Source of the DNA: Amphibalanus amphitrite
Lineage: Eukaryota > Arthropoda > Thecostraca > Balanomorpha > Balanidae
NCBI RefSeq assembly: GCF_019059575.1
Contig: NW_024881574.1
Span: 1,112,001-1,176,000, forward strand
Direction of reading: 5' to 3'
DNA: 64,000 bases
Of the stretch, positions 4,401-46,700 are shown piece by piece (position 1 is the first letter of the stretch; each line of letters begins with the position of its first letter). Made by a program: the position numbers and the translations under genes. The notes below the pieces were generated by a model, which searched no databases, was not told the DNA's origin, and saw only the letters and a program-made list of their open reading frames with translations.

Positions 4401-7400
4401 CCCTTTTCGAAAATATATTTCAATGGAATGTAGGACTTAATTAAACTTCACGTTTCCGGGTGAAACAGTCGGTTTCGCTATTTTCATCAGATAAACTTTA
4501 AACGGCATAACTTTCCATAACCGCGCGTCCGGCTTTTCAAGCCACATGGCCACCGTTTAATTTGATTGGTGCCTTTGAAACAGCTTCGACAAGCCACTTG
4601 TTACAAAATAAAGAACTGGTTTCACTTCCGCTGCACCAAGCAAAGAATGCTTGGGATGAATCGTTGCGTGACTTTGGCGAGGGATGCATATCGAACATTC
4701 TACAGAGGATTACGGGATCATATTGCGCGAGACGTAACTCTTTTTTAAGCTGCACTTGGCGATAAAAAGCGATTTTGCAATAGTATAGGTAGTGTTGGTC
4801 AGAGGCCGATCATATTCGTTTGGTGAAAATGACGGGATCGGGGTAGTCATTGCTAAACGGTATGCGTAAATTTAGAAGAAAAATGTAAGCACCTATTTTC
4901 AACGTCCGCCAGCTTTGGGAAAACGAAATATAAAAGTAAGCATTAACTACAGAAAAAGCAGACGCTATGTATTGCCGCCCCTTTGGTCCATCAAAGAGCG
5001 CATTTGACAGAAATCACGTAGGCACGCACTTCTGTCGGCGCGTCCCCATCCGTCGGCTGCGTCTCATATCTCCGCGTCGGCTGCGTTATCCATATCTCCC
5101 ACCACCCGCTGTGTATCTGCTGGCCACATTCTCTCCCCTACTTTCACACAGAAGCGACGCCGGGTGCGAGGCGCGTCTGTTGGTAGCCGTGCGCCTCCCA
5201 CGCCCTCGGATGTGTTTTTATCGCTCCTCTCTGCGGCCGGACGGCTGACTGACCGACTTTGGTTTCTCTTGTTCGCAGAGTATACCAGCTCTATCCTGGC
5301 TCAGGTGCAGGCGGCTGGGAGACAAGTGGATCCCGCCACGCTGGCCAGCCTACAGCAGGACGCTCGCAGGACTCTGCTCAACATCCAGGTGCGTCACGGG
5401 GCTCCGTATTTGGCGTCGTGCTTTTTGTTGTGCTGTCATTCGGGGTGTGATTAGTTTATCAAAGCCAATGGAGGTAGCGAATGGTTGTTATAGAGCAGAT
5501 TCGAAAAAACAGTTTACTGAAGTATTGGATCCCTTGCTGCGGATACTGGTGGATCCTGTCGCGAGGAACAGGCGGATCCAGTCGCGCAGAGACCGGTGGC
5601 TTGCGACGTGAGAGACGGATGAGTTTCGGTGGCCCTAATCGCCGCTCTCGGGGTTTGTTTTCGTCGCTGTGACAACAGCCCGAGCTCGGCTGAGAGGGAT
5701 CAGCGCTGGATCCCCGCCCAGGTAATTGACCGGTCTGCGCCACTCTTCCGGGTATCTGGCGTACGTCAGACGGCCTGACCTCATGGGAACTGAGCGTTAC
5801 ACGTGAGAACGGTGACAGATATGGCTGCAGAGAAGCCTGCAGTCTGCGGGATGGTCAACAGAGGAGAAATGTCACCGGTGGCGGTGGCGGAAGTCGGCTG
5901 TCCCGGCTGACCGCCAACCGCGACCTGTCGCCGGCGGTGAAACGATCTGACAAACTGGCGCTGCTCTCTTTCGGCGCTGATGTTGAAACTTTGGCGAGCG
6001 TCTCTCGATCTGGCCGGAGATGTGACCGGTTGTCGCCGGACGCGGGCCGCCCTGCTCTGGAGGAGGGCGTGTCGCCGGGCGACTATTGTTGCATTGTCTC
6101 CGCTCCGCTCGGGTCGTTTCTGGGCCTGGACTCGGTATCCTATCTGCGCCGATCTGCAGAGACATTGTTGCCGCGTGCCCTGCTTCCGTTCTTTGTCACT
6201 TTGCAGGGTTTCTCGTGCCGGACGCTGGTCATTGTCCCGTGCCGGTTAGCCGGCCCGGCTATCCACTCGCTAGGGAGATTGTCATCGCGATCGTGCACGT
6301 GACGCACGAGATGTAGCCATGGGGCCCGCACGGTTCCTGTCTGGACCACAGGCGTTATCACGGCGGCTGGGCCACGTTTTCGGCACCGTGAATGCACCCC
6401 CAGACGGAAATACGCTAGCGGTCGTTTGTAATAGTTGCAAGAGTAAGGTGATTGTTATTTTCTTAACCCGCGCCGTGCTGGTGGCCTGAACTTTCCGCCG
6501 AGTGCTGGGGGGGGGGGGCGTTTTCACGCCCCCCCCCCGTCTAACTCGGCTCCTGGGCCACGTAGCGACACGCGGTAAGCGGCAATCGAAAGAGCGTCAA
6601 AAATAAGGACGAAAACACTTCGGTCATTTTTTGGGTCAGGTCAAAGGTCAGGTCACCAGAGGTCACCAAAGGTAAAATGTTGACTATTTCAACATTTTGG
6701 AAACTGCCAACGGCTATCTCGGGAACCGATAGAGCTACAGCGCCGCGGAAAAGCGCATTCGATAGCCCTTTTACAGACCTTTCTGAGCAATGTTCTCAGA
6801 TTTGACCTCAGGTCAACGGTTTAGCCTCCAGAGGGCAAAAACTCCAAAAATAGCCGTTTTTACGAAAAACGTTTTTTCGTCAATAACTTTTGACTCATAA
6901 GCGCCATGACATTACTTTTGCCAGCATCGTGTTCCTCTCGTCGAGACGCGTCGAATGAATTATTTGTTGACCTTGAAAGGTCATTTTGAAAATTTGACCT
7001 CAGGTCAAGGTCATGACCTGACCGAAAAGGGTCATGTTGCATATCAGTCGATCCGTATCGTCGAGCTGAACACATCTGACGTGTTTTCACCGCTCTAGCA
7101 CGTCTCTATCAAAAGTTATAGCCAAAAAACTGCTGGCGACCGTTCATGACCTGAGATGACCTCAGGGGCACACAGAGGGGTCACAGGTGCATTTTTCCTA
7201 TTCAGTGTGTCATGTTTACCTATGAACCGATGTTTGAGAGCGTTTTGAACGATATTCGTCCAAAAGAGGCGCATTTCAATTTTCTCCCATTGACTTATAA
7301 TGGAGAGGTCGCAAAATTGACCTGACCTTAGGTCACAGATATCAAAAATCCGAGATATACATTTTATACATACTGTTACTCATATCAATCGCTGAAAGTT

Positions 7401-10400
7401 TCAAAGTGATCGTTCAGTCGGTGTAGCTATAGCGAGCCTTTGAACTTTTTCTGAGGTAAGGTCACTTGACGTGACCTGGTGACCTGACCTTGAACGGCCT
7501 AGGTCTGAAATTTTCACAACATGTGCGGAAATGATGTAGGAACACGTGTACCAAAAACGGCGGCGCTGCGCGCCGCCGTTTTTGAGATATTCGCGAAAAA
7601 CCTGAGGGGGGGCGTAAAAACGCCCCCCCCCAGCACGGCGCGGGTTAAATGTCACACCGATTAATTTGCTACCAGAGTTCGTTGTTGCTATGCGTCGAAC
7701 TAAATGGTCGCTGGCTTATGCTCTGCTTTTGTATGTTATTTAGAGCTAATATGCGTTTATTTCATGCCTTCGCTTAATTAATTCCATGTACTGTTCTTGA
7801 TGGGTATAATGTCTCAGAGTCGGTGAAACTCTCGTAACTTTCTGAGGAATATATCCTTTTTTGCAGTAAATTGTCAACCGGCCGTATCTCCCTCTGGTCT
7901 AGACCTTTCGCTGACACCCATCTCCCCCACCCGCAGGGCCCGGACCGTGACGCCGTCGTCCCCCCAGCCCGCCCCAAGAGGCCCTCCTCGGTCGGCGCTG
8001 ATGGTGATGCTGCGTCCCCGGAGACCAAGCGTCGTGCTGTCGGCTCCGTCCCCGCCCTGGCTGTGCCCAACTGGACGTCAGTCGGCGCCACCGCCAGCCT
8101 CCTCCGGGTGCGCGAGTCCCTGGAGCAGCGCGGCGACGACAGGATGTCAGCGAGAGAGCTCGGCTCACCGTCCCCAGATGGGTCCATCGGTCACAGGCGC
8201 GAGGTCAATGATGTTCTCAGCGAGCCCCTGCGCGGCATTCGCTACCCGAACGGCATGGTGGTTCCGCAGCCACTGCCGCCGCCGCGCCGTTCCTCGCCGA
8301 CCCGAGCCGACCGCGCCTCGGTCAGCCCGCCGGTGAAGCAGAGCTCGCCTCGTGTGCGCACCGCCGAAGAGTACGTGACTCTGGATGACGACGAGGACCC
8401 GATGGCAGATGCAATTCGTCTGATGAAAGCCAAGGGAGAGTTCCCCTGTCGGCTGTGTAATCAGATCTTCAGGAACCTACGTGGCATGAAGGGGCACGTG
8501 AGAGACCACTTCGAGAAGAAGCCGCCGTACCACTGCAATGTGTGTACGCTGTTCTACCCTGACAAGGCGGCGCTGGGAAGGCACATGAAAATCCACACAG
8601 GAGAGCGACCGTATGAGTGCCGTCGCTGCAACTTTGCCTTCACAACAAAGGCCAACTGCGAGAGGCACATGAAGAACCGCCACAAGCTGACGCGGGAGGA
8701 GCTCGCTGACAACATGAACGTGCTGCCCAGTGACACCCGTCCCAAGACGAGGTCTACGCCGCCGCCGATGCAGAGGGCGATCCTGCCTCTCGGCACTGAC
8801 CTGACCGTCTGCACCGTGTGCGACGCCAGCTTCGGTGAGTACACGCCGGCCGTGCAGCACGTCAAGAAGTTCCACCCGACCAAAGACCCAGCGCTGGTGC
8901 TGAACGCCCGCGGCGCAGCCCGCAGCGCCGTGCCCAGTCCCGGAGAGCCCACCCAGCGGCCTCCGCTACCACTGTCGCTGCCGCCGCTGCTGCCGCTGCC
9001 GGTCAGCCTGCCCGAGCGTCCACTGTCGACTCAGTCGCGCTCGTCCACCCCGCACTCCGTGCAGAGGCCGGTGGACTCGCCTGCTCCGGCCGCCGAAGAT
9101 GACGACTCAGCGCCGCTGGACCTCAGCCGGAAGTCGGAGAGACCCCAGGCGGCGCCGGAGCTGCCGCAGCTCTCACCCGCTGAGGAGGCGCTGCGCTCGG
9201 CTGCGCTCATGCAGATGCCGTACTGCATGCCGTTCCCGATGCCGTTCTTCATGCCAAGCATGCAGATGATGAACAGGCAGATGGAAGAGATGCTGGCGCA
9301 GACGCGTAACGCCGGGCTGAGCTCGGGTGGCGGCATCCTCACGGCGGCACAGATGCAGGCTGCGCTTCAGTCGGCGTTCGGCGTCGGCGCCCTGGGTCAG
9401 GTGCCACCGGCACCGGCGGCCGAGGAGGACCGCGACACGGAGGATGAGAATGCGCTGAACCTGACCGGCACATCCAGCGCCCCGAGCACCCCCGGCGCGC
9501 TAGACGATCCGCGCAAAAAGCAGAAGCAGCGCCGCTACCGCACCGTGAGGCCCTACCAGTGCGTGCACTGCGACGCTCGCTTCACACTCAGCACCAACAT
9601 GGATCGGCACGTGAAGAACACCCACCCGGACAAGTGGGAGCCGAAGGCGCGCGGTGTGCGCCGCTCGGCCACCGCGGTCAGCCCGATGGCGTCTCCGGCC
9701 GAGCCCCCCTCGGCGAGCGAGCCCGGTCCCTCTGGCGGCGCGGCGGCCACCGTCGTCTGCGTCGAATCCGACGACGACGGCGGCCTGGTGATCGACGAGC
9801 CGTCTCGCGACGAGACTGACCTCGCCAGCGTCGACCGACTGGTGGTCAGCGCGCAGGCGCAGACCTGTCAGCAGTACTTCCGTCGGGACGAGGAGCGCAC
9901 GTCGGAGGTCGGTTCGGAACGCGGCGCTTCGGCGAGCCCTGTCGGCGACGAGGACTCGGATCGTGCCGAGAAGCGGCGCAGCGCCTACTCCAACGCCCCG
10001 AACAAGATCCCGTGTCGCTTCTGCGACCGCGTGTTCCCCTGGAGCAGCTCGCTGAAGCGCCACGAGCTGACCCACAGCGGTGAGAAGCCGTACAGCTGCC
10101 CGCACTGCCCGGTCCACTTCACCACAAAGTCCAACTGTGACCGACACCTGGTGCGCAAACACAGCGGCGGCAGCAGCGGCGACGACTCGGCTAACGCGCC
10201 GCGGCCCGTGGAGCGGCCCTTCAAGTGCACGCTCTGCCCGAGCTCAACGTTCTCGACGCAGGAGAACCTGTCGCGCCACCACGCCGAAAAGCACGTGCCG
10301 GGAGCCGCCGGGCCCTCCACGCACCAGTTCTGGTGTCACGTCTGCGACCGGCGGTTCTTTGACCTGGAGCGGGCGAGGGATCACCTGGAGGCTGAGCATG

Positions 10401-17226: not shown

Positions 17227-20200
17227 TCAGGCTCGCGCCGCTCCGCCGAGGTGGTCCCAGTCGTGGTCGGCGTCGTCGGCGATGGGCGACGCGACCTCGG
17301 CGAGGATCTCGACCACCAGACGGGAGAAGCGCTCCGCGTCCTCGTCGGCCACGCGGCCGCGCACATAGTTGAGGTCGTAGCAGAGCCTGCCGCCCACCGT
17401 CTGGAAGCAGTGGCTGCACAGAGAGTCGGTGAGCGCCGGCGGAGCGCGCACGGCGCGGTGCAGCTCGGCGGCACGCACGTCGCGAGTGCGTGGCATCAGG
17501 CGGTCCAGCGGCCCCAGGTTGTTGATGCTGTAGATGCAGCCGGAGAGCTCTGCCCCGCCGAGGCCGCCGCGATCGGACGGTGAGAACCACGACGAGGAGC
17601 GCAGCCGGAACAGCGGCTCCTGACTGTTGAGCTTGGTGCGGAGCTCCTTGCCGAGCGCCTCGGCCACGCTCCAGAACTCGGAGAGGTCCGCGTGCTCCAC
17701 GTTGACCGTGAGCTCCACGCCGGCCACTGTGGAGAGGTACATCCAGTCTGCGTCGGGCATGTAGCGTCGCGCGTTCACCAGCCACAGGGTGGGCAGGTGG
17801 GTGGGCACGTCGCTGGCGCCGGCCGTGGCCGCCAGCTGCGCGCTGGCGAAGGAGACGGCCGCGGACAGCGCAGCGTTCAGAGACACGCTGTGCGCGTGAC
17901 ACAGCGTTCGCAGACGCGCCACCTCGCTGTTGGGCACGGTCACGGCGATCGTGCCGGTCGAGTAGGCCGACTTGGGCAGGGTGCTCTGGTGGGGACGAAC
18001 GTACTTCTTCAGCAGCGGCGGCATGCTCCGGTCAAACAGGCTCGAGAGGAATTTTCCGGCTGCCATGGTGAAGAGGGACAGTCTCGAGTCGGGCATGTAG
18101 CGCTGCAGCATGTCTTCAACGCTGGGGAAGAACGGCGCCGGCTCGCGTTTGGGGATCTTGGACTCGCGGATCAGGAAGTCGAGGTTCTCCAGCACTCGGC
18201 CGCACAGCATGGCGTTACTGAGGCCGTCTGTGATGGTGTGGCACAGCGACAAGTACAGGACGCTGCGGTGAAATGGCGCTGGCGGCTCGTCGATGTTGGT
18301 CGGTCGGAGCATGAAGCAGGCCTTCCACAGAGGTCCGACGCTGGGTTCGATTTTGGTCTCGTTGAGCAGTTTGTGGTGGTGTTTGAGCCAGTCACCGCCG
18401 GGTTTGAGCACCTCCAATTTGATGCTGGGGTACGGTCCGACGACGAGGTACGACCCGTCGTCCCGGTCCTCCACACGCGTCCTCAACATCGGCACCTGCC
18501 TGAGGAAGAGACAGACAGCAGCGGGTCAGAACGAGTGTTCGTCCTACAAGGCGACTGTTAGCCTACTTGTGTCCTCGTACATATATTCATAGACGTGAGC
18601 ACGGATGGACGGACGGACGGATGGACGGTCACGTTATGGTTTAATAATAAGTTGATTTCCTTAGCGCGCAAGCCACTCTCAGCTAGTATTTCAGACAATA
18701 ATATTTTTCATCTTCCCAATGCCGTCCACGCCTTTTGAAATCTTCCGAAGCCGTTAGGCGCCCTGGTCGCAAACAATCGCATTTTTCGTAAAGGCTGTGG
18801 TCAAATTTTTTTCTCTTTTACCTTCAAAATATCAGGTCCTAAATTTGCTGATTGTAGACAGTTATTCCCTCTGCCTGCAGTTTCCAGGCTGCCCTCCTAT
18901 AGAGTATTATAGAGTATCCTATAGAGTATATTTACGCCGACCAGGATTTTCCCTATCTCAAAGGACACTCTCAGAGTACCTATCTGTTGATTTTGCCCAT
19001 TGGTGTGCGTGGTAACCTGACCTAAACTTGTCCACATAGCAAGTGGCTAAAACACAGCATTACACAATGTGTCCTTCTGCATTTAAAAAATAAATTGCTC
19101 AATGATCCATTTCTGTATATTTCGTAATATGCATTTCACTTTATTTAGCTAGATCATAGATGTACCTATGTCGAAGATCACTATGTCCCTACTACATCGA
19201 TGGCTATTGACAGCTTGTACTCTGTTTGGTCCAATCGTCCGCATGACGACCTATCGCTGCGAAGACTTTGATCTCAACGTTATCTATCATCTTAACGCCA
19301 CGGATAACCTAGTTATTCAATTGCGCCCTACTTGGACAAAGTTTCTGTTTAGTCGGCCCACGCTTCTGTCTGTTGGCATGAGCTCAACGTTTGAAAATAT
19401 TTCAACAAAGGGAAAATAAAACACGGCATCAAATCAAGATGTTGCTGATAAAAGCGCTAAATTGTTGTATGTTCTAAAGTAATCGATCAGTCGAGGTCGT
19501 GTGTTCATGGGGTCGATGTTCACTTCATTCCGACAGTCCGAAAGGGACACAAGGTATGTAGATCGACAAGTGTTTATATATTATCACAAGTCGAGACATG
19601 GGGCCACCGACCAATGCATACAAGTGCACATGAACTAATAAGAGACATAACTGTTACATCATACACTGTAGTCTGTATGTATGGGAAGCCAGGGTCACAG
19701 TCTAATCAGATAATAACTCATAGCACCTGTTACTTGGCAAACATTGGATCTATTCTTATCTAATTTTTTACCTATTTAGACTGCGACAAGGCGTTTTTTA
19801 TCCGGTTCGCTGTGTAGGTATATACATATGTCTCGGCATATGAGATATCTTGAATGTTGGAAATCAAAACACCGTCTTCAGAATCTCAGGAGGGCAGAAC
19901 GTGAAAAATACGCCAAGTGGGCCATGCCTCTCTGTTCCCGAATGGCCAAGATTATTTATCTCTCCTCTCATGTGCGTCAGAATGAACTATGAGCCCTGCC
20001 ATTTGTTTTTACCCCGGAACCTTTTGTAAGATACACAGCGGCCTAAAAACCCAGTATGCGTCCAGTCCACACAGATTAGGTTTTACACAGCATGACTGCG
20101 CCCATGGCTAAGCAGAGTTGCCTGTTTTTTTGCGCTCTATCTGCGCCATGTAAAGAGTCGTTCGAAAGGATCGATCCGGTGCGCAATTTTAACCCGCGCA

Positions 20201-22624
20201 CCGACGGGGGGGCGGATATCCGCCCCCCCTGAGGTTTTTCGCGAATAGCGGGAAAACCGTGGCGCGTAGCGCCGCGAAATTTGGTATGACTATAACCTCA
20301 TCAATTTTACACATGGTGTGCAAGTTTGAACCTCCTACCTTTTAAGGTCAGGTCACCAGGTCACTTTGAATGACCCAACCTCAAGTCACTTTTTTGCAAC
20401 TTTGTCACCGTGCCAGAGCTACAGTAGATGTCTGAGGCCTTTGAAAGTCGCAGGATATTATTAGGTCATTAGTAGCTACAATTTGTTTATCTCGGAATTT
20501 TGATATCGGTGACCTAAGGTCAGGTCAATTTCGCGACCTCCCCATTATAAGTCAATGGGGGAAAAATCAACTCCCTGTTTTTACCACTAAAACGGGTCGG
20601 AATGGCCCCATATACCATACATGACTTCATATACGATCAACCTTCACTACCTTGAGGCCTGTTTTGCTGTTGGGCAGCTGTAAGGTCATGTGACGTCATC
20701 AAAGGTCACCAAAGGTTTTTGGCCAATAACTCCGTACAGGAACAAGATACAGTCGCGTGGATGGTCTCATTGTGTTCAGCTCATCAAGACGCATCGAATG
20801 ATATACATGATGACCTCAAGGTCACGTGACCTGAGGTCAACCTTTGACCTTGACCTTTCGAGGTCAACATATATATATCATTCGATGCAGATTGACGAGA
20901 GGATCACGATGATGCCCTTAGTTTGTTTCTATCTTGACTAATTCGAAAGTTATTCGAGAAAAACTCTCTCCATATCTAGCGCCGCCATTTTGACTTTTTC
21001 GACCCCTGTGACGTCATCTTTGACCTGACCTGAAAATGACCTTAGTAAAAATTGTAGATCTTGGCCGTGCGTATCCGATGCCGTTTACCGCTTGTCGCTA
21101 TCTTGCTTCGTTCTCGAGATCTCAGGGGGGGGGGCGGTCATCCGCCCCCCCCCCCCCCGTCGGTGCGAAGTTGGCGCAGACCCCCGTCGGTGCGCGGGTT
21201 AATAAACAGCATTAGTGTCTACGCTGTTGGTAGTTTTGGGCTGTCAGCAGACTGCGACAGTTTATTCGTCGAAACCTTCTGTTTGGCGCAGACCGGGACC
21301 TTTCTTCAAACAGCCGCCATGATGTGTGGTCCTTACGTCAATTTGAAGAGGGTATGACGCAAGTCTAGGCTCTGTAGTGTGTCAGTGTTAAAATGTAACC
21401 CGCTCTTGCCGATCAAAGCTTATTGTAAGGGGTTCAGTTATGCGACATAGTAATTAATTTATCCAATACGCAATGACAGGACCTACCTTTTTTACTCTTA
21501 TTTAAATTTATACGTAATACCACCTACTATAGTGACCGTTTGACCTACCTATCAATAATAAGATAGATAAGAGAGCTTCATTTGTCACTACCCGGTTTAC
21601 ATTAATTAGAAAAGAGTGATTCCTGGATTAACAGGCTCTAGCTTATCATGCTATCAGGGCCTAAATGCGACGGTTGGCAACAATGATGATCTACCGTTTG
21701 AGGTTTTTTTTTGCAGGGCTGAAAGGTGAAACTAATAATCAGCCAGGAGCACAGTCTATAGAGAATGGCGGTCATTTTGAACATGCATTACGAAATAAAT
21801 AAATAAATACGAAATAATATAAATACGAAATAGATTAATATTCACGCACCCATGGGACATGTTTACTGTCGGCAATGTGCGACATGCAATGCGCAGTTTT
21901 TTTGTGGTTTGGCAATCGGCATTGCACCACAGTCCATCACATCACCCCAAATATTGCGCCATAGAATGGCTCCTTTAGGCATGTGCTTTAGTCGGCGGGC
22001 CCGGGAAGCAGGCCCAACCATTACTTCCGGGTCCTTCCCTCCACCTTCCCTGGACGGCCCTGTCTTACCCGGCATACAAAGAAGCTAAGAAAAAGACTAA
22101 AAAAAGAATTATAAGCAATATAAAATATTTGGTCTCTTGGTAGACTATCGGTAAAAGAAAAACAAACAAACAAACAAACAAACAAACAATGTAAACCAGT
22201 CACTGTTACATGACTGCCAAATGGTAACTGTAGATGCTCCCCCCCCCCCACCCATCCTTTATTCAGCGCCCAAGAGCAAACCTCCCTCTTTCTCCTCCTG
22301 CTCCGCCGAACCTAAGCCCTCCACTGACCTCTGCAGCGCCTCCAGCGCCAGCTGCACCATGTTCGGCGTCAGCTCCTGCTTCGAGTCCATCACCAGCGAG
22401 TACTGCAGCAGGCTGGCGCCGTCAGCGCCCTGGAAGAGCGCGTGCCAGCCGGTCTCCTGACGGCCCAGGCGGCGCACAGTGGTGCCCTCGACCAGCCGGA
22501 TCTTCTGCGGAGCACTGCTGCCGTCGATGAGAATCCTCTTGCACTCCTGGACCTCGGGGTCAGCCGGGAGAATCGTCTGACCCTCGCGGCGCGGCTCCTG
22601 CTCTTCGCGAATCACCTCGGCCAT
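17227..22624 (-). CDS. Condensation/alcohol acetyltransferase-like acyltransferase (HxxxDG), two exons
   Basis: The exons on the - strand are 22624-22329 and 18499-17227. The donor is AG|GTCAGT and the acceptor CCTCAG|G; the phase 2 join fits exactly and gives a 522 aa product. Exon 1 holds the amino-terminal motif VRRLGRQE and a helix ending LALEALQR. Exon 2 continues with QVPMLRTRV, as in the family pattern of an AL..L...HP.LR helix. The catalytic motif HTITDG has His186 and Asp190. SINNLG further on resembles the usual C-terminal latch region. The fold is that of chloramphenicol acetyltransferase-like CoA-dependent acyltransferases and NRPS condensation domains. The substrate cannot be deduced. 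No signal peptide or membrane segment is evident. The start is the first ATG in the open frame, just after a possible acceptor, so a longer 5' exon is possible. The intron carries element E2. Confidence 0.75.
18500..22328 (-). other. 3.8 kb intron of the acyltransferase gene
   Basis: It contains element E2 (20193-21198), an (AAAC)n tract at about 22161-22190 and otherwise unremarkable AT-rich sequence. Confidence 0.65.
20189..21202. mobile_element. TTAA-flanked element E2 (20193-21198)
   Basis: TTAA at 20189-20192 and 21199-21202 flanks 1,006 bp with a perfect 18 bp terminal inverted repeat, CCCGCGCACCGACGGGGG. Both ends have G-rich/C-rich hairpins around GCGGATATCCGC and its relatives. The shared 75 bp core is at about 20485-20559 in reverse orientation. 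The interior from about 20540 to 21120 is nearly the reverse complement of the interior of E6, although the two have unrelated terminal repeats. The short open frame at 20690-20941 recurs in E6 as part of this nucleotide identity and shows no sign of being a protein gene. Confidence 0.85.
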
Positions 22625-22799
22625 GACGGGTGAGAGTTGGGCCTGGTTCTGCGATGTGACAGTATGAACACGTCGAACGTCTTGGAAGCTATTTTGGAGC
22701 TCCGCGATGCCAGGACCCGCTCTCTTCAGCTGCCGATCGAACACTGAGACTCGATCAGCTGTCTGAGACAGACTGACCACTCCAGGATTAGGTAACGAC

Positions 22800-23330
22800 T
22801 AACGAGCGAACCGTGCCGCCGGGATCCTCCTGCGCCTCCACGCGGACAGCCGTGCGCCGTAGCAGCTCAGCTGTCGAAGACTGACGGACTGTTGATCTAG
22901 AACTGGGCCTTCAGCTGCGACGAAAGGACGTCACACGGCGCGGCCGTCTCCCTCCGATCGCTCCTGCCAGCGGCACTGACTCAGAGCAGCGCGCGCGCCG
23001 CGGCACGCCACCGCCGCGCTGCGGTCCGCACCGGGTCCAGGGTCCAAGGGCGCGCTGTGTTGACCACTCCTGGCCAGAGAGCGGGACGCCCGAGGACCGA
23101 GATCACGACAAAACGGGGCTGACGCTCTTTGTAAGAACTGCACGATGTGACTAATGAGAGGGATGACTGAGGGGAGGTGAGTTTTGAGAGTTCTACGAAA
23201 CACGTGTAGCAGCACGTAGCACGTGGCGTGCATAGACTGGCAGGATACAATGTTTACATAGCAGTGGAGGGCACTAGTGTGACTTATGGCAGTGACGAGT
23301 CGTGCACTAGCCCGCTCCATTAAAAACGCT
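22800..23330 (-). promoter_or_regulatory. CpG-rich region upstream of the acyltransferase gene
   Basis: A CpG-rich block lies directly 5' (on the - strand) of the first coding exon, with AT-rich DNA beyond. It is probably promoter plus a 5' UTR exon, since an acceptor-like tract precedes the first coding exon at about 22660. Confidence 0.4.
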
Positions 23331-23622
23331 GAATCTATATACCTACCTACTTTCTTAGAATGTGGTCAAGTGAGTGGCGCTATTCATATAATTTAAAAGA
23401 AATGCACGCGAAGGACACCTGATCTGAACGTTAATCAGCCAGCCAGGGCGGAAGTGCCGATTGTAGCACATCTTAGCGAGGGGGGAGACGTTTTACGTCC
23501 CCTCTAACTAAAAGCGATTTTTTCCGACTTTCACACTAGCTTCTTGAATAAATCAGCTCATAGCTCATGGACTACTTAAGCTAAAACGTCACAAAAAAAA
23601 ACATTCGTAGGTCTGTCTCTTT

Positions 23623-24248
23623 TTAACCCATCAGCCGCTGGGGGGGGGGGGGGGCATAAAGTTGCCCCTTTTACGTCTTGTAGAATATATCCGAAACCTA
23701 ATGAGCTACGAACGTGAAACTTGAATAGCTTCAAATGAATACCTAGGCGGCAAAGTTTGAGGAAAGTTTGGTGGTTGTAGCTTATAAGATGACGTCGCAG
23801 TGACGTCATAAAATTTTGTCGTTTTCCGATATGGACCGTTTCTGATGTCGCTGGGCATGAAACTCAACTGTAAATGAACTAAACAGCACCTGCTGTCGTC
23901 CTAAAACATCTAAGTACCTACACTTAAAACTAGTTTCTGACAAATAATCGGTCCTTTATATTCGCTCTCATATCTCGGATATATATCCTAAAGAAACTGA
24001 GAGTCACAAATCTATAAATTGACTTCTGATGTCACTGTGACGTCATTTCAAAATTGGATTGACACCAAAGTTGAACACAACCTCGGCTAGGTATTCAGGA
24101 AGATGTGTGCAAAGTTTCGTTTCTCTATCTCTTCGCGTTGCGGCGATATCGTATCGTCGCAGAAGTAAAGGGGGGGGCAACTATATGCCCCCCCCCCCCC
24201 CAGCGGCGGCCGGCGGGTGACGCGAAGGCCCAGCGGCCGCCGGGTTAA
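23623..24248. mobile_element. TTAA-flanked element E3 (23627-24244)
   Basis: TTAA at 23623-23626 and 24245-24248 flanks 618 bp. The terminal repeats CCCATCAGCCGCTGGG and CCCGGCGGCCGCTGGG match at 13 of 16 positions. It starts with a run of 15 or more G, a short loop and CCCC, with a matching hairpin at the right end. The interior carries TGACGTCA-type words and lacks the 75 bp core. Its right-hand TTAA is also the left-hand TTAA of E4. Confidence 0.75.
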
Positions 24249-25280
24249 CCCTCGCCGGCCGAGGGGGGGGGGCGGGTGCCGCCCCCCCATAGGGTTTTTT
24301 CGCGATAGCTCCGAACACGCTGGCGATAGCGAGCTGAAACTTGGCATACCTGACCTTTGATCCAAGCCGGATCTTTTGACACCAACCGCATTTTTGGGTC
24401 AGGTCAGGTCACTGACCTATGACGTCATAAGTGAACCTCTGCACGGTCTTCAGATGTCGCAACTTCGCAACGCCCTCACTGCCAGAAGAGATGTCACAGG
24501 GAAATGAAACTTTCAGGATCTAGTATCCATTATGAGTCCCACAACTTGTATATCTCGGATTTTTCCTAAAGGTCATATGAGGTCAGGTCATTTTCGTGAC
24601 CTCACCATTATAAGTCAATGGGGAAAAATTCAAACTGCTATTCTGGCGCCGGGAACGATCTTCAACTATCTCAAGCACACAGAATCGTGATTTGATGCAC
24701 TCCTTGCAAGGTTAGATGCGTCACTTTTGCAATGTTGACCTTGCGTGACGTCATTTATGACGTCATCAAGGTCATATTAGTTTTTCGTCAATAACTCTTG
24801 ATCAAATTGAGCTAGCGAGTCGGGAAAGCCACCAATGGACTAAGGAAGACCTGCCGAATCGAATGATATGCGACATGACCTCTTTCGACCAACTTCGTGA
24901 CCTGGGGGTGCTGACCTGACCTTGACCTGAGGTCAACACCCCAAGTTGACCTGACCCGGACAAAAAGTATATCATTCGACGCGCCTGAGCGAGGCGAACA
25001 CGATGCTGCCAAAATCGGCGCTCTGCGGCCGTTTTTTGCGAAGTTATTCACTAAAAACTGAACCGTACCTTGGGGCACTTGACCTGACCTCAGAGGTCAC
25101 CGGTTGACCTAGGACCTTAAAATCGGGTACCAATCTCTGCGTCTCGTAACGGCGCACACGCTCGTTTTTTCCGCGACGCGCTAGCTCCACCAGGGGCGAA
25201 ACGGCGAGGGGGGGGTCGTACCCGCCCCCCCCCCTCGGCCGGCGCGTATGTAAAAAACCAATAGGTCCGGCGAGGGTTAA
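24245..25280. mobile_element. TTAA-flanked element E4 (24249-25276)
   Basis: The element is 1,028 bp between TTAA 24245-24248 (shared with E3) and TTAA 25277-25280. Its ends are CCCTCGCCGG and CCGGCGAGGG. Poly(G)/poly(C) hairpins sit inside both ends. The 75 bp core is at about 24548-24622 in reverse orientation. TGACCT/AGGTCA words are dense at 24870-25110, next to paired TATCATTCGA/TCGAATGATA arms. Confidence 0.8.
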
Positions 25281-25521
25281 AGTCTTCCGCTATCTAGGAT
25301 TATCTAGGATTATATAGGACTATCTAGGATTTTCATAAAAAAATAATTCGGTAAGCCTATACCTAGGAGACAAAAACCGTCATTTGTTAGTACAAAGTTT
25401 TTCACCAATAACTTTTGGCACAAAGCTTGCATGACATTGGTCTTACACCAGCATCGTGTATCTCCCGTCGAGATGTGTCGATTGAATCATAATTTGAGTT
25501 TACCTTTAACGCACTTTAATT
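25281..25521. repeat. Spacer with TATCTAGGAT repeats and a solo fragment of the E1/E8 interior
   Basis: Four copies of a TATCTAGGAT-like decamer lie at about 25290-25335. About 25380-25500 resembles the E1/E8 interior (ATAACTTTTG, then the TCGTCGAGA and TCGA..GAAT block), without ends of its own. Confidence 0.5.
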
Positions 25522-26430
25522 TTAACCCTCGCATGTGTACGGGGGTCGGACGGACCCCCCCCCCATGGTTTTTCGCGAATAACTCGCGTAAAAAGCGGGC
25601 GATCGCAACGAAACTATCAGTATAACCTCGATTTGATCAATTTTACACCTACCCTGAAAATTTCATGACCCTGACTCAAATGACCTTTGACCTGTGACCT
25701 CTTTCCCGAGACCATGTTTGGCCGGAATCGCGATTCCGCGTATGTCGGCTCGCATTAGCTGCGCGTTTGCAAGCTTTTCGTCGTTTCAAACGTTCAAACA
25801 TGTGATTTGATGTTGCTCCCATGCATTAGGGTGGGTGTCAAGGTCACCTGGAGGTCAGGTCAAGTCAATAACTTATGACCTTTGGTGACCTCGGTTCACT
25901 TTTTCGAGTTTTACATATTTCTAGGCTAGTTTTTGGAGCTAACTTCGAATTTAGCAACCATTTGAACATTTACGAAAAAGCTTTGGTGACTTCGTAACAT
26001 GTTATGAAGCTGTCAGAGGTGGTTGACACGTACTACGAATACCCAACCCATCACGACGCCTACTGGTTGACCTGACCTGACCTGACCCGACCTGGTCTAA
26101 ATGCTTAAAGACATCATCTGTGATCAAAACTAACACGATATACGTGATCAGCACCCCGATAAACCCCTTAGCAGCCACACTTTACGACTTTCTAACAGAT
26201 CCCGATTTTTCCGACTTTGGGTCATTGACCTGACCTGGAATGTCAACCAATGACCTAGGACCTTAAAATTGGGTATCATCGGCTTCCTCTCGTGACGGGC
26301 AGCACGCTCGTTTTTTTCTGCGAAGCTCTAGCTCGATCAGGGGCCAAACGGCAAGGGGGGTCCAACCGACCCCCCCCCCCCCCTCCTACACATTAGAAGC
26401 TGGGAAACGCCGCACACATGCGAGGGTTAA
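25522..26430. mobile_element. TTAA-flanked element E5 (25526-26426)
   Basis: TTAA at 25522-25525 and 26427-26430 flanks 901 bp. The terminal repeats start CCCTCGCATGTGT. Hairpins are GGGGGTC...GACCCCC at the left and GGGGGGTCCAACCGACCCCC at the right. The interior has AGGTCA words but not the 75 bp core. A second copy of this family (E5b) further right is split by other insertions, so E5 serves as the empty-site reference. Confidence 0.85.
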
Positions 26431-26780
26431 CTCTAACTTTAACTTTTAACTTAATCTTTAACGTTAGGGCTGCTGAATTTTCACACCCTGCTGAGAGTGT
26501 GATTCGATGTTGCTCCCATGCATAGGGTGGATGTCAAGATCACCTAAAGGTCAGGTCAGGTCATTGACCTTCGGTGACCTCGGTTCACTTTTTCGAGTTT
26601 AACATGTTTCTAGGCTAGTTTTTGGAGCTGAATTCGAATTTAGAAACCATTTGAACATTTACGAAGTAGTTTTGGTGCCTTCGTAACATGTTACGAAGCT
26701 GTCAGAGGCTGTTGACACCTACTACGAATACCCGTCACGACCCCTACTGGTTGACCTATTCTAACCTGACCAGACGTGGT

Positions 26781-27777
26781 TTAACCCTATTCCTGGCGGG
26801 CTCCGCCGGGACAAGAAACTGGCGGGGGGGGCCGATTCGGCCCCCCCCTGAGATCTCGAGAACGAAGCAAGATAGCGACAAGCGGTAAACGGCATCGGAT
26901 ACGCACGGCCAAGATCTACAATTTTTACAAAGGTCATTTTCAGGTCAGGTCAAAGATGACGTCACAGGGGTCGAAAAAGTCAAAATGGCGGCACTAGATA
27001 TGGAGAGAGTTTTTCTCGAATAGCTTTCGAATTAGTCAAGATAGGAACAAACTAAGGGCACCATCGTGATCCTCTCGTCAATCCGCATCGAATGATATAT
27101 ATGTTGACCTCGAAAGGTCAAGGTCAAAGGTTGACCTCAGGTCACGTGACCTCGAGGTCATCATGTATATCATTCGATGCGTCTTGACGAGCTGAACACA
27201 ATGAGACCATCCACGCGTCTGTATCTTGTTCCTGTACGGAGTTATTGGCCAAAAACCTTTGGTGACCTTTGATGACGTCACATGACCTCACAGCTGCCCA
27301 ACAGCAAAACAGACCTCAAGGCAGTGAAGGTTCATCGTATATGAAGTCATGTATGGTATATGGGGCCATTCCGACCCGTTTTAGTGGTAAAAACAGGGAG
27401 TTGATTTTTCCCCCATTGACTTATAATGGGGAGGTCGCGAAATTGACCTGACCTTAGGTCACCGATATCAAAATTCCGAGATATACAAATTGCACATACT
27501 GGTACCCTAACTAAACCCTGAAGAGAAGAAATTGATCGGTCAAAAACTCTAGCTCTGGCGTGATTGCAAACTTTTCTGAGGTAGCGTCACCAAACCGCCT
27601 CTGGTGACCTGACCTGAGGTCAGATCAACTCAAAATTTTCAGACATGTTGCGTAGAAGCCTTTTAGGAAAAGTCAGAAAATTTGAGCTTCCTAGCTCAAC
27701 GCGTTTGGGAGATATAACCAAAAAACCTCAGGGGGGGGGGGCTCCTGAGGCCCCCCCCCCGCCAGGAATAGGGTTAA
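26781..27777. mobile_element. TTAA-flanked element E6 (26785-27773)
   Basis: TTAA at 26781-26784 and 27774-27777 flanks 989 bp with a perfect 15 bp terminal repeat, CCCTATTCCTGGCGG. Hairpins are GGGGGCCGATTCGGCCCCC at the left and a 10-12 G/C stem at the right. The 75 bp core is at 27412-27486. At about 27083-27200 there is an internal palindrome with CATCGAATGATATA arms around TGACCT/AGGTCA words. The interior is an inverted near-copy of E2. Confidence 0.85.
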
Positions 27778-28274
27778 AGGAAAAGGGCCACCTTCGTGAA
27801 ATATGAAGATATCGTTGTTTTTCATTTTGACATGATTATTTTTCATTTTCTTTTTAAAACTGGTGCCAGAAGTGCACAATTCGCGAAAAAGTATTTAAAA
27901 CTATTTAACATATTGGTACTCTTTACGGCACCTACTGTATGATGGCATAGCGATGACGTCACACTCAAGCCAATCAGCGTTCAGAAGACAGACTCGTCGG
28001 ATTGCGTCAGATAAGCTGATTGGTTAAAGCTGAGCTGGTTGGAGCTGATTGGTAAAAAACCAAAGCCTCGCCGCGGGTGGCTGTATTGTCGGATAAGAAC
28101 GCATTCCTGGGATAAGGACGCATTCCTGGCGTATTTTCTTTTAAAATTGCCGATAACTACGAATGGAGGCCGAAATCGGCCGTAAGGAGGAAGACAGATT
28201 GGTTTTCGGACACGGGCTACAAGATGGCTATCTCAGTTTCAATCCCCATGTTAAAGGTGGCCCTTTTCCTTTAA
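27774..28274. mobile_element. TTAA-flanked MITE E7 (27778-28270), different family
   Basis: TTAA at 27774-27777 and 28271-28274 flanks 493 bp with a 17 bp inverted repeat, AGGAAAAGGGCCACCTT. It lacks the CCC ends, the poly(G) hairpins and the AGGTCA load. It shares its left TTAA with E6, so two elements landed at one target. The interior contains CCAATCAGCG, TGACGTCA and CTGATTGGTT words. Confidence 0.75.
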
Positions 28275-28278
28275 ATGC

Positions 28279-30453
28279 TTAACCCGCGCCCGGCTGGGGG
28301 TCCTGGATTTCCACGCCCTGCTGGGGGGGGTGTTTGAACACCCCCCTTCTAACTCGGCTCCTGGGCCACGTAGCGATACGCGGAAGGCGGCGTTCGAAAG
28401 AGCGTCAAAAATAATGAGGAAATCACTTTGGTCAATTTTTTGGTCAGGTCAAAGGTCAGGTCACCAGAGGTCATTGAAGGCAAAATTTCGCCGATTTCCA
28501 GGTCGAATGTCGACAATTTCCAAGAAGCCAACGCATAACTCGGGAACCAATAGAGCTACAGCGCCGCGGAAAAGCGCATTCGATAGCCCTATTAACGCCC
28601 TTTTTGAGTAATTTTCTCAGATTTGACCTAACGTCAACGGTTTTGCCTGCAGGGCCAGGGGGCAAAAACTGCAAAAATAGCCGATTTTTTTCGGAAACAG
28701 TTTTTCTGCAATAACTTTTGACCCAAGCCTTGTTCGAGCTTACTTTTAGCCGCATCGTGTTCCTCTCGTCAAGACGCATCGAATGAACTATAACTTGACC
28801 TTGAAAGGTCAACTTGAAAATTTGACCTCAGGTCAAGGTCATGACCTGACCGGAAAGGGTCATGTTGCATATCAGTCGATCCGTATCGTCGAGCTGAACA
28901 CATCTAAGGCGTTTTCATCGCTCTAGCATAACTCTATCAAAAGTTATTTGCGAAAAACTGTTAGATACCATTCGTGACCTAAGATGACCTCAGGGCATAG
29001 GGTAAGGTGCCTAATTAGCGACCCCCTTAATTTGAACCGTCATTGCTCACGCTCTGTGGGTGCCACTGTATTACGGGCTTGATTTTCGGAGAGATCGTTC
29101 ATTTTTCTATTAAAATATAGTCATTTTCTGCCCCAATATTCACTAACTTATTTGTAGTGAGTATTTTGGCAAACCATTGCAAAAAACGCTAATAGGGAAC
29201 TCTTCCCGATTAGCGACCGGGGAGGGTCGCTAATAAGTCTATGGGTTTCCCCATATTAAAAATGACAAAAAATGCGACGCCTGAAAAGATGAAATATGAT
29301 CTCAAAAAGGTAACCTTTACGCAAAGCACTCAATCACTCGAACAGGAACGTTTATCCAACACATTTACGTAAGTAAAAACTGATCACGCGATGCACCGAA
29401 GGCGAAAAGAAGGCGGAAACCCAAATTTTGCGGGCTATCTCGTATGATATTCGAGGTCCGCGCTGAATTCGGCACCCCTGCAGTCGGTGACGACATTTGG
29501 CATCCCCTGCCACACATTGCAAGCTTCAGCAACACCTCATTTTCATTTCTCTCTTTTCCCCTTTCTTTCCATTCTTGAGCTATTTGCGACCATGTCAGGC
29601 GCAAATAGGAAATATGAGTTGCGACACATTTTTAACCGCCATGCTGTGCACAGTTGAGCGATTCACTATGGGAAAACGGCAATCAATTGAAAAAGGAATG
29701 TCGATTCAGAATAAAAAAGGTGCATCATCCTAATATGCATCGCTTTTAATCAGAGAGGGCCCAAACACATACGTTTTGGATAAGAAACTCGTCATTTTTA
29801 TTTAAACGCATCTGAAACGTCCCACCAGAAACATCGACGACCGGAAAATAATTTAATTTGATAACCAAAGTATGGCTGAGGTTTTGACGATGTTTTTACC
29901 CCGTTTTCTCCTACTAGTTTTTCTGTAGGGAGGTAGGTCGCAAATCGGAAAGGGTCGCTAATTAGGCACCTTACCCTAAACAGGGGTCACGGACACCATT
30001 TTCATGTTCAGTGTGTCTAAACCACTTGTAATGCAGTGTTTGGGAGTGTTTATAATATCTTTCGTCCAAAAGAGGCGCATTTCAATTTTCTCCCATTGAC
30101 TTATAATGGGGAGGTCGCAAAATTGACCTGACCTTAGGTCATCGATATCAAAATTCTGAGATATACATTTTGTACATGCTATTGCTCTTAGCAATCGCTG
30201 AAAGTTTCAAAGCGATCGGTCACTCGGTGTAGCTATGACAGACATTGAAACTTTTTATGAGGTGAGGTCACTTCAAGTGACCTGGTGACCTGACCTTGAA
30301 TGACCTTGGTCTGAAATTTTCACAACATGTGTAGAATTGATGTATGATTAGGTGTACCAAAAACGGCGGCGCGGAGCGCCGCCGTTTTGAGATATTCGCG
30401 AAAAACCACAAGGGGGGTGTTCAAACACCCCCCCCCAGCAGGGCGCGGGTTAA
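28279..30453. mobile_element. TTAA-flanked element E8 (28283-30449) with E9 inserted
   Basis: TTAA at 28279-28282 and 30450-30453. The terminal repeats CCCGCGCCCGGCTGGGGG and CCCGCGCCCTGCTGGGGG match at 17 of 18 positions. The hairpins enclose TGTTTGAACA at the left and TGTTCAAACA at the right. It is 2,167 bp, but without E9 it is about 1,188 bp, close to the 1,178 bp of its relative E1. The 75 bp core is at 30092-30166 and AGGTCATGACCT is at 28836-28847. Confidence 0.85.
28998..29978. mobile_element. E9: TA-flanked element inside E8 (29000-29976)
   Basis: An insertion relative to E1 is bounded by TA on both sides. It has a perfect terminal inverted repeat of about 25 bp that starts GGGTAAGGTGCCTAATTAGC. 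The spacing of E8 is restored to that of E1 if it is removed. The TA target suggests a Tc1/mariner-type or similar MITE. No transposase frame was seen. Confidence 0.8.
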
Positions 30454-30779
30454 AGACATCATCTGTGATCAAAATTAACACGATATTCGTAATCAGCACC
30501 CCGAAAAACCCCGCGGCAGCCACACTTTACGACTTTCTAACAGGTACCGATTTTCCCGATTTTTGGGTCATTGACCTGACCTGGAAGGTCAACCAATGAC
30601 CTATGACCTTAAAATTGGGTATCATCGGTTTCGTCTCGTGACGGGCAGCACGCTCGTTTTTTTTTCGCGAAGCTCTAGCTCGATCAGGGGCCAAACGGCA
30701 AGGGGGGTCCAACCGACCCCCCCCCCCCCACCCCCTATACGTTAGAAGCTGGCAAACGCCGCACATACGCGAGGGTTAA

Positions 30780-43700: not shown

Positions 43701-46700
43701 GTAAGTAATGTGTTTTTAGTTATGCAAGCATGAAAGTTTTTATCCTGTTTCTATTCCTGTTCCTATTATTCCTGTTCCGACAATTTTGATTTTAAGTTTC
43801 ATGATATTCGACGAACGCTTTCGATTTCCATTTCCAGGCCAGGCCTGTGAGTTTTATTGTATTTTAATTTGATTTACCATTTGTTTTGTTAGTTAATTGT
43901 GTAATGTGTATATTTAGATAGATTTTGTTAGCAGTTAGCACTGCTTCTTCCAAGTCATTGCACGACCTTTTTCATTCCATGGCAATTTTGTTTTGCGATG
44001 CACACCACCAGCTGCCACGCCGCCCCGGCCTGTGGCTCTGACGTCCGCCCCTCCCGGTCGTCTGGCCTCTCTGTGTCCTCCCAGCACGCTGTCGGCACTG
44101 GCCTGGTGGTGTCCCCTGTTCGCCGAGGTCGAGTTCCTGCCCTACTTCGTGTTCCCGTTCTGTAACGTGTTCTCGTCGGACCCGCTCACCGCCCTGGAGA
44201 TGGTCATCACCCTGCTAGGTGAGAAGCGGAGAGGGATGGGGTGTCCCGCAGCGAAACGGCTCATCTTACTGTTTGGTGGGGCAAGTAAAATGGGTTTCCT
44301 GGATTAAATGTTACGGTTGTCTCGCGTCAATTTTGTTTTATCTCAGGGTTTTCAAGCCGAGCTCCATGCCTTTTGCGTCCGTCGGTGGCTATTTTGCACT
44401 TAACCCTCGCACGACCAGGCCATTTCTCATAACACGAACGACCAGGGGGGGGGTTGTTACGACCCCCCCTGGCGTTTCGAAACGGAAGGTCGTAGAGCTT
44501 AGCGGAAAAAACCAACGGATTGCTCTCAACGAGATCTCGCGATTGGTGGTATATTTTTTGGTCCTAGGTCAACATTTGACCTACTTATGACCGGTCAAAG
44601 GTCAAATTTTCCGAAAAAATCAAACTTTTTCAACTTTCCGCGGCGATTGCGGCAAAACGGTGGGAGATATCGACTTGAAACCTTCACTATCGTGTTCCTT
44701 GATCAATTCTCTATCGTTTGGTATGTATATCGTTTCCCTAGCTCTAAAAATGGCGCGTTGGGAGCGCCGGAAGTCGGCAAGGTCACAGTCGGCGGCAGAA
44801 ATTCGAAAAATCAAAATTTAAATTTTTGAAATCTGATTGTATTTTTGGATTTGGGAGGTCCATTTGCTCCCTATAGAAGCTAATATTGCTGCATATTCCC
44901 ATTGAGGTGACAAGAATTAGCAAAATAGTGGTTCGGGCGATTTTCAAAAATAGTACCGGACGCTGTTCCTCTTGTGACGTCATAGCTCCGTGACCTGACC
45001 TGACCCGGTCAATTTTCTTGCACCACACGATAGCCAATGCTTGCCCCAACATGCATGGGAAGTTTCATCATGATCCATCAAACAATGTGGGTATCACCGG
45101 CAGAAAACCTAGGGATTCGGCGCACACGTTTGGTAACTGTCGGCCGGAGGCTGTACCTCTTATGACGTCATAACTCCGTGACCTGACATGACCCGATCAA
45201 TTTTTTTTTCGGCAAAAGATGCGCAAAGGTTGCCCCAGAGGGTATTGAAAATTTCAGCCCGCTACGACAAGCCGTTTAGCGTGCACTTCGAAAAAACCTC
45301 AGGGGGGTTGATACAACCCCCCCCCCCTAGGCGTTCTAGGGTTAAAGCTTGGTATGAAATTATTATGTTACCCGCATCACATATTTTCTCTTGGAAATGC
45401 TCATTCACATTTGAGGCCAATTACGTCAGAAAATGTGGTTTTACTACGTTTTTTTTTCGTGCTTTCGAGTCTGTTTCGCCTCTATTGGGAAGGGGCCGGC
45501 ATTGCGAGTGCAAGTCGGATTGGACATGGTATAGACCCCTGATTAGGCAGCCTATTAATTACAAGCGTCTTGTGAAACATGTCGCATTATTGCTATTCAA
45601 GTCTAATATTCGTTTGTCTCGACAAGCTTTGCAGTCTGACCTGCACTTTGTCACGGCTTTTGACTGCTGAATGTAATAAACGGGGAGTCTGCCGTGACCC
45701 GGATTCGAACCGGGGTTATCGCGGCCACAACGCGAGGTCCTAACCACTAGACTATCACGGCGATGCAGTGCAGCGTTTAATTGTAATTTCCCAGAATTCT
45801 ATAAAATAAAATAGTGCATATATTATACCAGTTTTGATAAGCTGGTTTCGCATCAAAGAGATGCCATCTCGATGAATAATTCCATCTGTTCATTTTTCTT
45901 ATTTTGCTGATATCAATCTTGCTACAATTTTGAATAGGTAGGGAAGGTAGTAAGTAGGTACTACGTTTGACTAACTTCAATTTATTTGAAGTTACATCCT
46001 GCTATTATAACTCATTTTAATGATATTGAAAACAACTAGAAGACATTGAAACAACTAGAAGACATTGAAAACAGAAAACTAAACTTGGTTGTTTTCAACC
46101 TCCCCGAGACCGGCAGCAGCGAGGGAGACATCGCAGCATTCAAAGAAATGATCAAGTCTGAGTTCAAGTTATCTGTGAAGTTACAGGAGGCGACAAGACT
46201 TGGAAAGATGAAAGACACAGGCTCCAGAATACTTAGAGTGAAACTCGAGGCACTGAGTGAAAAGAAGCTGATCTTGGCTAAAGCGAAGGATCTGCGAACA
46301 AGCCGTGAAGAAACATATACTAGTGTCTTTATCCGTCCAGATCTTACAAAATGCCAACTTGAGGCTTCAAAAAACTTGCGAGCACTGTTGCAGGAAAAGC
46401 GCCTAGCTTTCCCAGAAAAGAAATGGATGATAAAACGGAACGAAGTGGTCATGGTTCCATCACTGCAAAGCTAAACATCCAAGATGGCACGAAAACAACC
46501 GGGCCCCCAACACATTCAAGTGCGTTAAAAGTGTTTTATGCGAACATCGATAATTCTATCATGAGTAAATACGACTCTATTTTGGCACTCATTGCACTTG
46601 AGGACTACGATGTTCTTGCGTTATCAGAAATGAAGCCCAAAGTTGGATTGATACCTGAACATACTGTTATGGAAGTGCCTGGGTATGACCTTTTTACTAG

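Follow-up and report, generated by a model that had tools for sequence, protein, structure and literature searches.

The closest described system to which the elements reported here can be compared is piggyBac (IFP2) of Trichoplusia ni. In the structural description of this transposon, the left end measures 35 base pairs (bp; LE35) and the right end 63 bp (RE63), an insertion and a duplication being present in RE63, and both ends contain a palindromic internal repeat of 19 bp (bp 17-33 of the left end) that is bound by a dimer of cysteine-rich domains; the same paper terms these lopsided ends enigmatic (PMC7351741). On the published letters of the right end (PMC3078864), we counted the word AAAGATAATCAT at bp 7 and again at bp 34, an offset of 27, with the palindrome starting from bp 45. 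Inner inverted repeats are also described in invertebrate and human piggyBac-like elements (PMC12324416). The stretch analysed here is 64,000 nucleotides (nt) of the Amphibalanus amphitrite genome (RefSeq assembly GCF_019059575.1, contig NW_024881574.1, positions 1,112,001 to 1,176,000 of the forward strand; hereafter the window), in which 8 full elements of the form TTAACCC...GGGTTAA are found (E1, E2, E3, E4, E5, E6, E8 and E10). With a probability of about 0.82, these elements are non-autonomous DNA transposons of piggyBac type, and the palindrome formed by a G-run and a C-run inside their ends would be the site where a dimer of the transposase docks.

This palindrome, composed of a G-run, a core of 9-10 nt and a C-run, was observed in all 16 ends of the 8 full elements, in agreement with an original prediction made on the letters of the window, and in the surviving end of a ninth copy (E9). 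The pattern of at least six G, 5-14 nt and at least six C has 15 matches in the window against a mean of 0.02 and a maximum of 1 in 100 first-order Markov sequences; these sequences, together with the reversed-pattern controls of the genome search, exclude a chance origin of the palindromes. The statement that a hairpin lies inside both ends has to be qualified at two places: the left palindrome of E3 is poor (G15 versus C4), and in the left ends of E3 and E5 the best dyad of the scan sits elsewhere. The CCC...GGG tips are present in 8/8 full elements.

Every element has one end that differs in layout from the other, a feature missed by the original prediction. When bp 1 is the first base after TTAA, the G-run of the 8 full elements starts at bp 14-16 at one end (short end) and at bp 40-44 at the other (long end), which represents an offset of 26-30 bp in 8/8 elements. 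Outside the window, 48 places were sampled (8 loci from the search and 40 further places, all on contig C1). A partner end was accepted if it had a TTAA and agreed with the tip at 9 or more of 13 bases; such an end is present in 34 of these places, including one (L005) that borrows the long end of L006. Both palindromes are recognised in 31 of these 34 elements and the far end is long (bp 40-48) in 31/31; the near ends were preselected as short by the search pattern whereas the far ends were free of length selection. The 14 places without partner and the 3 of 42 elements without both palindromes were left out before the counts. Among the 39 scorable elements (8 in the window and 31 elsewhere), 39 have one short end (bp 11-16) and one long end (bp 40-48), and the offset between the two G-runs is 27 bp in 24 elements, 26 in 6 and 28 in 6, the values 29, 30 and 34 occurring once each. 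In the long end, the word preceding the palindrome is a second copy of the tip word, included in the extra 27 bp or so; in a set of 25 representatives, this direct repeat has a spacing of 27 bp in 15 cases and of 26 bp in 6. A G-run/C-run palindrome is recognised in 81 of 84 ends, 238 of 372 core positions are complementary, and the median length is 10 for the G-run (range 4-17) and 7 for the C-run (range 4-14). The box GGTTTTT (often GGTTTTTCGCGAATA) was also noticed at less than 100 bp from the tip in 26/39 short ends and 1/39 long ends; its presence near most short ends implies that the elements share a common polarity.

The elements of the window repeat the end arrangement of T. ni piggyBac with other letters, and for this reason the hairpins are read as the docking palindrome. 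Both systems have TTAA targets, CCC tips, a short and a long end, a duplication of the tip-proximal word at an offset of 27 and a palindrome at both ends (PMC7351741, PMC3078864). Unlike the window elements, which are non-coding and whose tip word and core vary by family, piggyBac codes for its own transposase, and the arms of its palindrome are of mixed sequence (TGCGT...ACGCA) instead of poly(G) and poly(C) (PMC7351741, PMC3078864). The original prediction found homopolymer hairpin caps unfamiliar for described piggyBac MITEs. The notion that palindromic caps are foreign to piggyBac elements does not hold, since piggyBac has a palindromic internal repeat of 19 bp, which is about as far from the tip as the palindromes seen here (PMC7351741), but the poly(G)/poly(C) arms remain unusual. 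Among the open-access papers listed, titles and the starts of abstracts revealed no poly-G palindrome in piggyBac-type elements, and no paper on piggyBac and transposable elements in a barnacle genome assembly was found. On this analysis, the hairpins are most probably docking sites specific to each family, and not a structure of a new type.

The unequal ends, in which the internal repeat of one end lies about 28 bp deeper and the tip-proximal word is duplicated, and the palindromic internal repeat are both features of T. ni type, and the former is not universal in the piggyBac superfamily: piggyBat of Myotis lucifugus, which codes for a transposase, is described with three palindromes in the left end only and none in the right end (PMC11707139). 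Among arthropods, Pokey and mPok of Daphnia belong to the piggyBac superfamily, include large non-autonomous derivatives of about 750 bp, use TTAA and often insert in the TTAA flanking another copy, as observed for E3 and E4, which have a single TTAA in common (the left TTAA of E4). They differ in that mPok has ends of 12 or 16 bp and about 90-110 copies, and in that Pokey and mPok also insert in ribosomal DNA; poly-G palindromes are unmentioned in the passages concerned (PMC3849761). The human elements MER75, MER85 and Looper resemble the elements by their description (TTAA, inverted ends and subterminal inverted repeats), the corresponding passages making no mention of homopolymer arms (PMC12324416).

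The use of TTAA is supported by two empty-site comparisons, which are both paralogous and not allelic. In the window, E9 is an E5-like copy that has lost its beginning and has been cut in two by the later insertions E6, E7 and E8 (left part 26498..26780 and right part 30450..30779, minus strand; the right part carries the long end, with the G-run at bp 47), where a plus strand means that the long end is at the left. The uninterrupted E5 (25522..26430, minus strand, 909 bp, short end left at bp 16 and long end right at bp 44) represents the empty site. The insertions are E6 (26781..27777, plus strand, 997 bp, long end left at bp 40 and short end right at bp 14), E7 (27774..28274, no strand assigned), which has one TTAA in common with E6, and E8 (28279..30453, plus strand, 2175 bp with a nested element, long end left at bp 41 and short end right at bp 14). 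E7 is another TTAA-flanked element, with inverted ends of 21 bp (TTAAAGGAAAAGGGCCACCTT, self match 1-21/481-501) and without a G-run palindrome. When the TTAA is kept once per insertion point, the joined flanks of E6, E7 and E8 (...GGTTTAAATGCTTAAAGACATC...) meet ...GGTCTAAATGCTTAAAGACATC... of E5 with no gap. The insertion point of E8 is a TTAA in E5. At the point where E6 and E7 inserted, E5 has CTAA, a difference of a single base, and the letters adjoining the insertions are TTAA. The first TTAA is thus common to E6 and E7, and the second was taken by E8. The second comparison concerns a coding piggyBac of 2,681 bp, not a poly-G element, inserted in an element of the GCGCCCTGAT family at locus L068: without the insertion, the 1,142 bp of this element and the 1,186-bp element of L020 align with 1,128 identities, 44 gap positions and one TTAA. 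In both cases the TTAA is duplicated on insertion. The seven full copies announced in the original prediction become 8 full copies and the split E9, to which the region 30450-30779 belongs as its right part. The proposed mobilisation of piggyBac type is supported by the empty site, by the layout of the ends and by the long-frame piggyBac transposase genes of the genome.

The assembly, which was searched over its 807,550,619 bases, contains 22,123 forward matches of the pattern TTAACCC-N(3-30)-G7 against 470 for the reversed-pattern control. When the gap is divided into three bins of equal width, the forward, one-strand counts are 21,296 for 8-14 bp, 899 for 20-26 bp and 24,660 for 35-41 bp, the controls giving 100, 139 and 129, respectively. 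Forward counts were used because the reverse-strand counts are inflated, every start inside a C-run being counted; as the patterns demanded G7, ends with shorter runs are uncounted, and the TTAACCC tips are not an independent result there. With 21,296 ends of short type and 24,660 of long type on a single strand, the objection that the genome might hold no other copies, under which the original prediction would have fallen, is clearly answered. If the two strands are alike, we estimate about 43,000 short ends and 49,000 long ends (decayed ends being missed and solitary ends included), that is roughly 40,000-50,000 copies, which with the median element length of 1,012 bp would represent some 5-6% of the assembly. 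The elements have the traits of miniature inverted-repeat transposable elements (MITEs), as they are non-coding, have inverted ends and exist in very many copies; their median of 1,012 bp is large for a MITE.

Within one element, the two ends match. It had been claimed that the loop word of one hairpin recurs inverted at the other end; this is true chiefly for its outer half. The loop words of E8 are identical (core TGTTTGAACA at both ends), those of E1 differ by one base, and E2, E3, E4, E5 and E10 have the outer part in common, but those of E6 match poorly (CCGATTCGG versus CCTCAGGAG). For the tip, the pre-palindrome word and the outer half-core of the 8 window elements, the true pairing of ends ranks first among the 40,320 possible ones, and for the inner half-core 12 of 40,320 reach the true pairing. 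With the 25 representatives, which include near-duplicates (e.g. two parsings of TATTCCTGGC), 100,000 random pairings all fall short of the match observed for the tip, the pre-palindrome word, the outer core and the inner core. The permutation of the tips is biased outside the window, the partners having been picked by tip match, whereas the pre-palindrome word of the far end and the cores were unused in the picking. The 100 listed places show 41 different tip words of 10 bp, near-variants included. We infer that the tip and the palindrome change together as the specificity of the transposase changes.

In the proposed mechanism, a piggyBac transposase encoded elsewhere in the genome would grip the tip word by its core domains, and its paired cysteine-rich C-terminal domains would hold the palindrome, of which the homopolymer arms would be the outer part. 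The transposase would bridge the short and the long end, excise the element at TTAA and insert it at another TTAA. The choice of transposase family would depend on the tip word together with the core of the palindrome, which would explain that the ends agree within an element and differ between elements.

Alternatively, the homopolymer arms could be functionless, a short ancestral palindrome having been stretched by replication slippage and carried passively. The variation of the G-run and C-run lengths among copies and their inequality in one palindrome (G10/C14 in E2) are in favour of such a slippage. We consider it a possible but doubtful explanation, because runs of at least 7 G are retained at the predicted positions of tens of thousands of ends (G7 being itself part of the pattern) and across the 41 tip words of the 100 listed places.

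The interiors of the elements are rich in the hexamer AGGTCA, which is a nuclear-receptor half-site. AGGTCA or TGACCT occurs 132 times in the 10,062 bp of elements (including E7 and the parts of E9) versus 50 times in the other 53,938 bp of the window, and 39 of 42 elements contain more than 5 AGGTCA per kilobase (kb), the motif being absent from E3, L011 and L046. In the first kb of the 14 partnerless places, 5 have none, 3 have three and 6 have 12-19. This density is solid. It could mean that the interior is the selected part instead of the ends, the half-site arrays keeping chromatin open or active in the germline, or having been taken up by the host. Between E1 and E8, with the sites masked in the alignment, 20/21 sites are intact compared with 40% of the other hexamers, and 17/18 merged clusters are intact (binomial p = 2e-6); in unmasked comparisons with E2 and E6, the conservation of AGGTCA also exceeds the background. 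These sequence comparisons suggest selection on the motif. Apart from the three elements and the five partnerless places devoid of the motif, and the three places with only three, other comparisons speak against the interior as the selected part. The 8/11 intact sites between E5 and E9 are not better than shifts. Between E2 and E6, 15/19 masked sites are intact versus 56%, and the base identity is equal (0.86 in site columns, 0.87 in the others). When E1 or E8 is compared with E2 or E6 (four pairs), 6-10 of 21 sites are intact versus 8-10% of the other hexamers, and for the three pairs with E4, 2-3 sites; in all these seven more diverged pairs, once masked, the identity of the site columns is below that of the other columns. 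In the 12 copies that share the E2/E6 interior, the sites show 4 private changes of 1,056 against 47 of 5,844, a deficit that is not significant (p = 0.17). An interior maintained by selection in this way is judged unlikely. Regulatory sites borne by mammalian repeats are known, according to the titles of the literature, and the listed open-access titles and abstract starts on AGGTCA with transposable elements contain nothing on poly-G palindromes in piggyBac-type elements. Other features of the interiors were noted: E2, E4, E6 and E8 have a second hairpin-like block, CCCCATT-GACTTAT-AATGGGG or close, and E2 and E6 a central imperfect palindrome of about 150 bp. The internal hairpin CCCCATTATAAGTCAATGGGG had no match in a scan of IMG/VR contigs.

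E6 gives an indication of how interiors and ends are associated. E2 (GCGCACCGAC ends) and E6 (TATTCCTGGC ends) are 96% identical over 685 bp of interior and differ in their tips, and the element of L032 has the tips of E6 with a different interior. The outer parts of E6 follow L032: bp 1-43 match it exactly (60% for E2) and bp 721-997 match it at 90-100% (48-76% for E2). The middle part, bp 71-670, follows E2 at 94-100%, compared with 52-76% for L032. In the two stretches that lie between, bp 44-70 and bp 671-720, L032 and E2 are equally similar to E6, at 89% and 92%, respectively. E6 is therefore a double recombinant, made of an L032-type element and an E2-type interior, with one junction at the C-run of the long-end palindrome and the other near bp 700. 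Four further copies of E6 type (L029, L031, L033 and L034) show 96.7-97.8% identity with E6 across about 1 kb, which means that the recombinant has multiplied. The E2 family has 7 further copies among the fetched loci (L021 and L035-L040), with 95-97% identity. On this single event, interiors can apparently be exchanged between end families. A tentative extension, to which we give limited credence, is a swarm of dozens of matched end families between which AGGTCA-rich interiors are swapped, the poly(G)/poly(C) arms acting as generic recombination joints that refit interiors to a new transposase specificity, and E6 being one frozen example.

The position of one E6 junction at the C-run of a palindrome could also be invoked for another explanation, in which poly(G)-loop-poly(C) would work through its DNA structure, as an extruded hairpin, a cruciform or a quadruplex on which excision, replication or recombination depends, and not as a binding site in duplex form. 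The arms are long, as seen from their medians of 10 for G and 7 for C, and it has been noted that hairpins or cruciforms might theoretically arise from the inner inverted repeats of piggyBac-like elements (PMC12324416). The known docking site nevertheless accounts for the position of the palindromes and for the asymmetry of the ends, and the cores agree between the two ends and are particular to a family, a property that structure alone would not require; a structural role of this kind is improbable.

Genes for piggyBac transposases are present in the genome. The domain DDE_Tnp_1_7 has 116 scored matches, those listed exceeding the curated cut-off, and many of them have open frames of 550-680 amino acids (aa). 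Two transposases were confirmed in Pfam; the enzyme of locus L049 resembles those of piggyBat and piggyBac whose structures are solved, and cysteine is abundant in the C-termini of both L049 and L077. Thirty of the 116 loci were inspected, 11 of which are near-identical copies of one 604-aa family, so that the sample is narrower than the count. Own matched tips are found in 18/30 loci, 14 of these 18 being of CCCATTAGTGCC type and none having G-run palindromes, and 12/30 have no recognisable end pair within about 1.5 kb on each side. L049 has a palindrome of 10/10 pairs centred at bp 24.5, the expected docking position, a number of pairs that 0 of 2,000 shuffles reach. L075 has 8/10 pairs at 24.5, and at least 8 pairs are reached somewhere by 55 of 2,000 shuffles; the L053 type has 8/10 pairs at 56.5 and 61.5. 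Two candidates for a coding copy with poly-G ends were rejected. L068 is in fact the CCCATTAGTGCC piggyBac nested in such an element, and in L030 the frames of 252 aa and 210 aa have no Pfam match. These two frames overlap (L030:1028-2196), the first showing a zinc-finger-like spacing. In the window itself, no transposase was detected among the 71 frames scanned of the 73 frames of at least 120 aa, as anticipated by the original prediction; a scan of 64 window frames gave a single weak and unrelated match (YukD, E 0.0038).

Several observations weigh against the elements being piggyBac-type transposons with docking palindromes. The poly-G palindrome ends are not the own ends of any of the 30 inspected transposase loci (of 116), and, of the coding elements whose ends were inspected, L049 alone shows a clear palindrome at the position predicted for docking. 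The centres of the window palindromes lie at 25-33.5 and 52-64, a wider spread than the 25 and about 53 of piggyBac. Finally, 3 of the 42 elements have no recognised palindrome at one end and 14 of the 48 outside places have no partner end. That a transposase of another superfamily using TTAA and CCC/GGG tips moves the elements, as the lack of a cognate transposase among the 30 inspected loci might suggest, is very improbable, since the TTAA, the short and long ends at a 27-bp offset and the internal palindrome fit piggyBac in detail.

The remaining elements of the window are as follows. E1 (6463..7648, plus strand, 1186 bp) has its long end at the left (G-run at bp 41) and its short end at the right (bp 14), with the palindrome cores CGTTTTCACG and CGTTTTTACG. 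E2 (20189..21202, minus strand, 1014 bp) has its short end at the left (bp 14) and its long end at the right (bp 41), with the cores CGGATATCCG and CGGATGACCG. E3 (23623..24248, minus strand, 626 bp) is short at the left (bp 14, the poor palindrome) and long at the right (bp 44); just to its left (23431-23505), a TTAA followed by G6, a core and C4 may be a decayed long end. E4 (24245..25280, minus strand, 1036 bp) is short at the left (bp 15) and long at the right (bp 43), and E10 (44400..45345, plus strand, 946 bp) is long at the left (bp 42) and short at the right (bp 15). The element nested in E8 (about 28998-29978, approximately 980 bp) has inverted ends of 27 bp (TAGGGTAAGGTGCCTAATTAGCGACCC) and, judged against E1, may have a TA target site. 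Elsewhere in the window, the palindrome is absent from TTAACCC at 57299 and GGGTTAA at 36320, and no TTAA end accompanies the G-run hairpin at 53342.

Outside the elements, the recognisable genes code for zinc fingers, MYND/MSS51, an acyltransferase-like protein and reverse transcriptases. Nine transfer RNA genes (four His, three Gly and two Pro) are spread over 23 kb (40877-63918), some of them as identical copies on both strands. Interstitial arrays of GGTTA type (41927-42132), which we take to be the arthropod-type telomere repeat, adjoin a pair of 152-bp inverted repeats (41696-41847 and 42292-42443), and a perfect palindrome with arms of 75 nt, 14 nt apart, is located at 55665-55828.

What is unusual in these elements is the combination of homopolymer arms, of many tip words matched between ends, of the recombinant E6 and of the dense AGGTCA motifs. 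Many end families in one genome keep the spacing of the short and long ends while the tip word and the core co-vary at both ends. These families represent a natural substitution series, from which it could be learnt which bases set the specificity of the transposase and why unequal ends are needed. If it is true that ends and interiors recombine at the arms, this would offer non-autonomous elements a simple route to switch helpers. The high density of AGGTCA motifs, in copies that number tens of thousands, provides a starting point in the search for regulatory sites borne by transposable elements.

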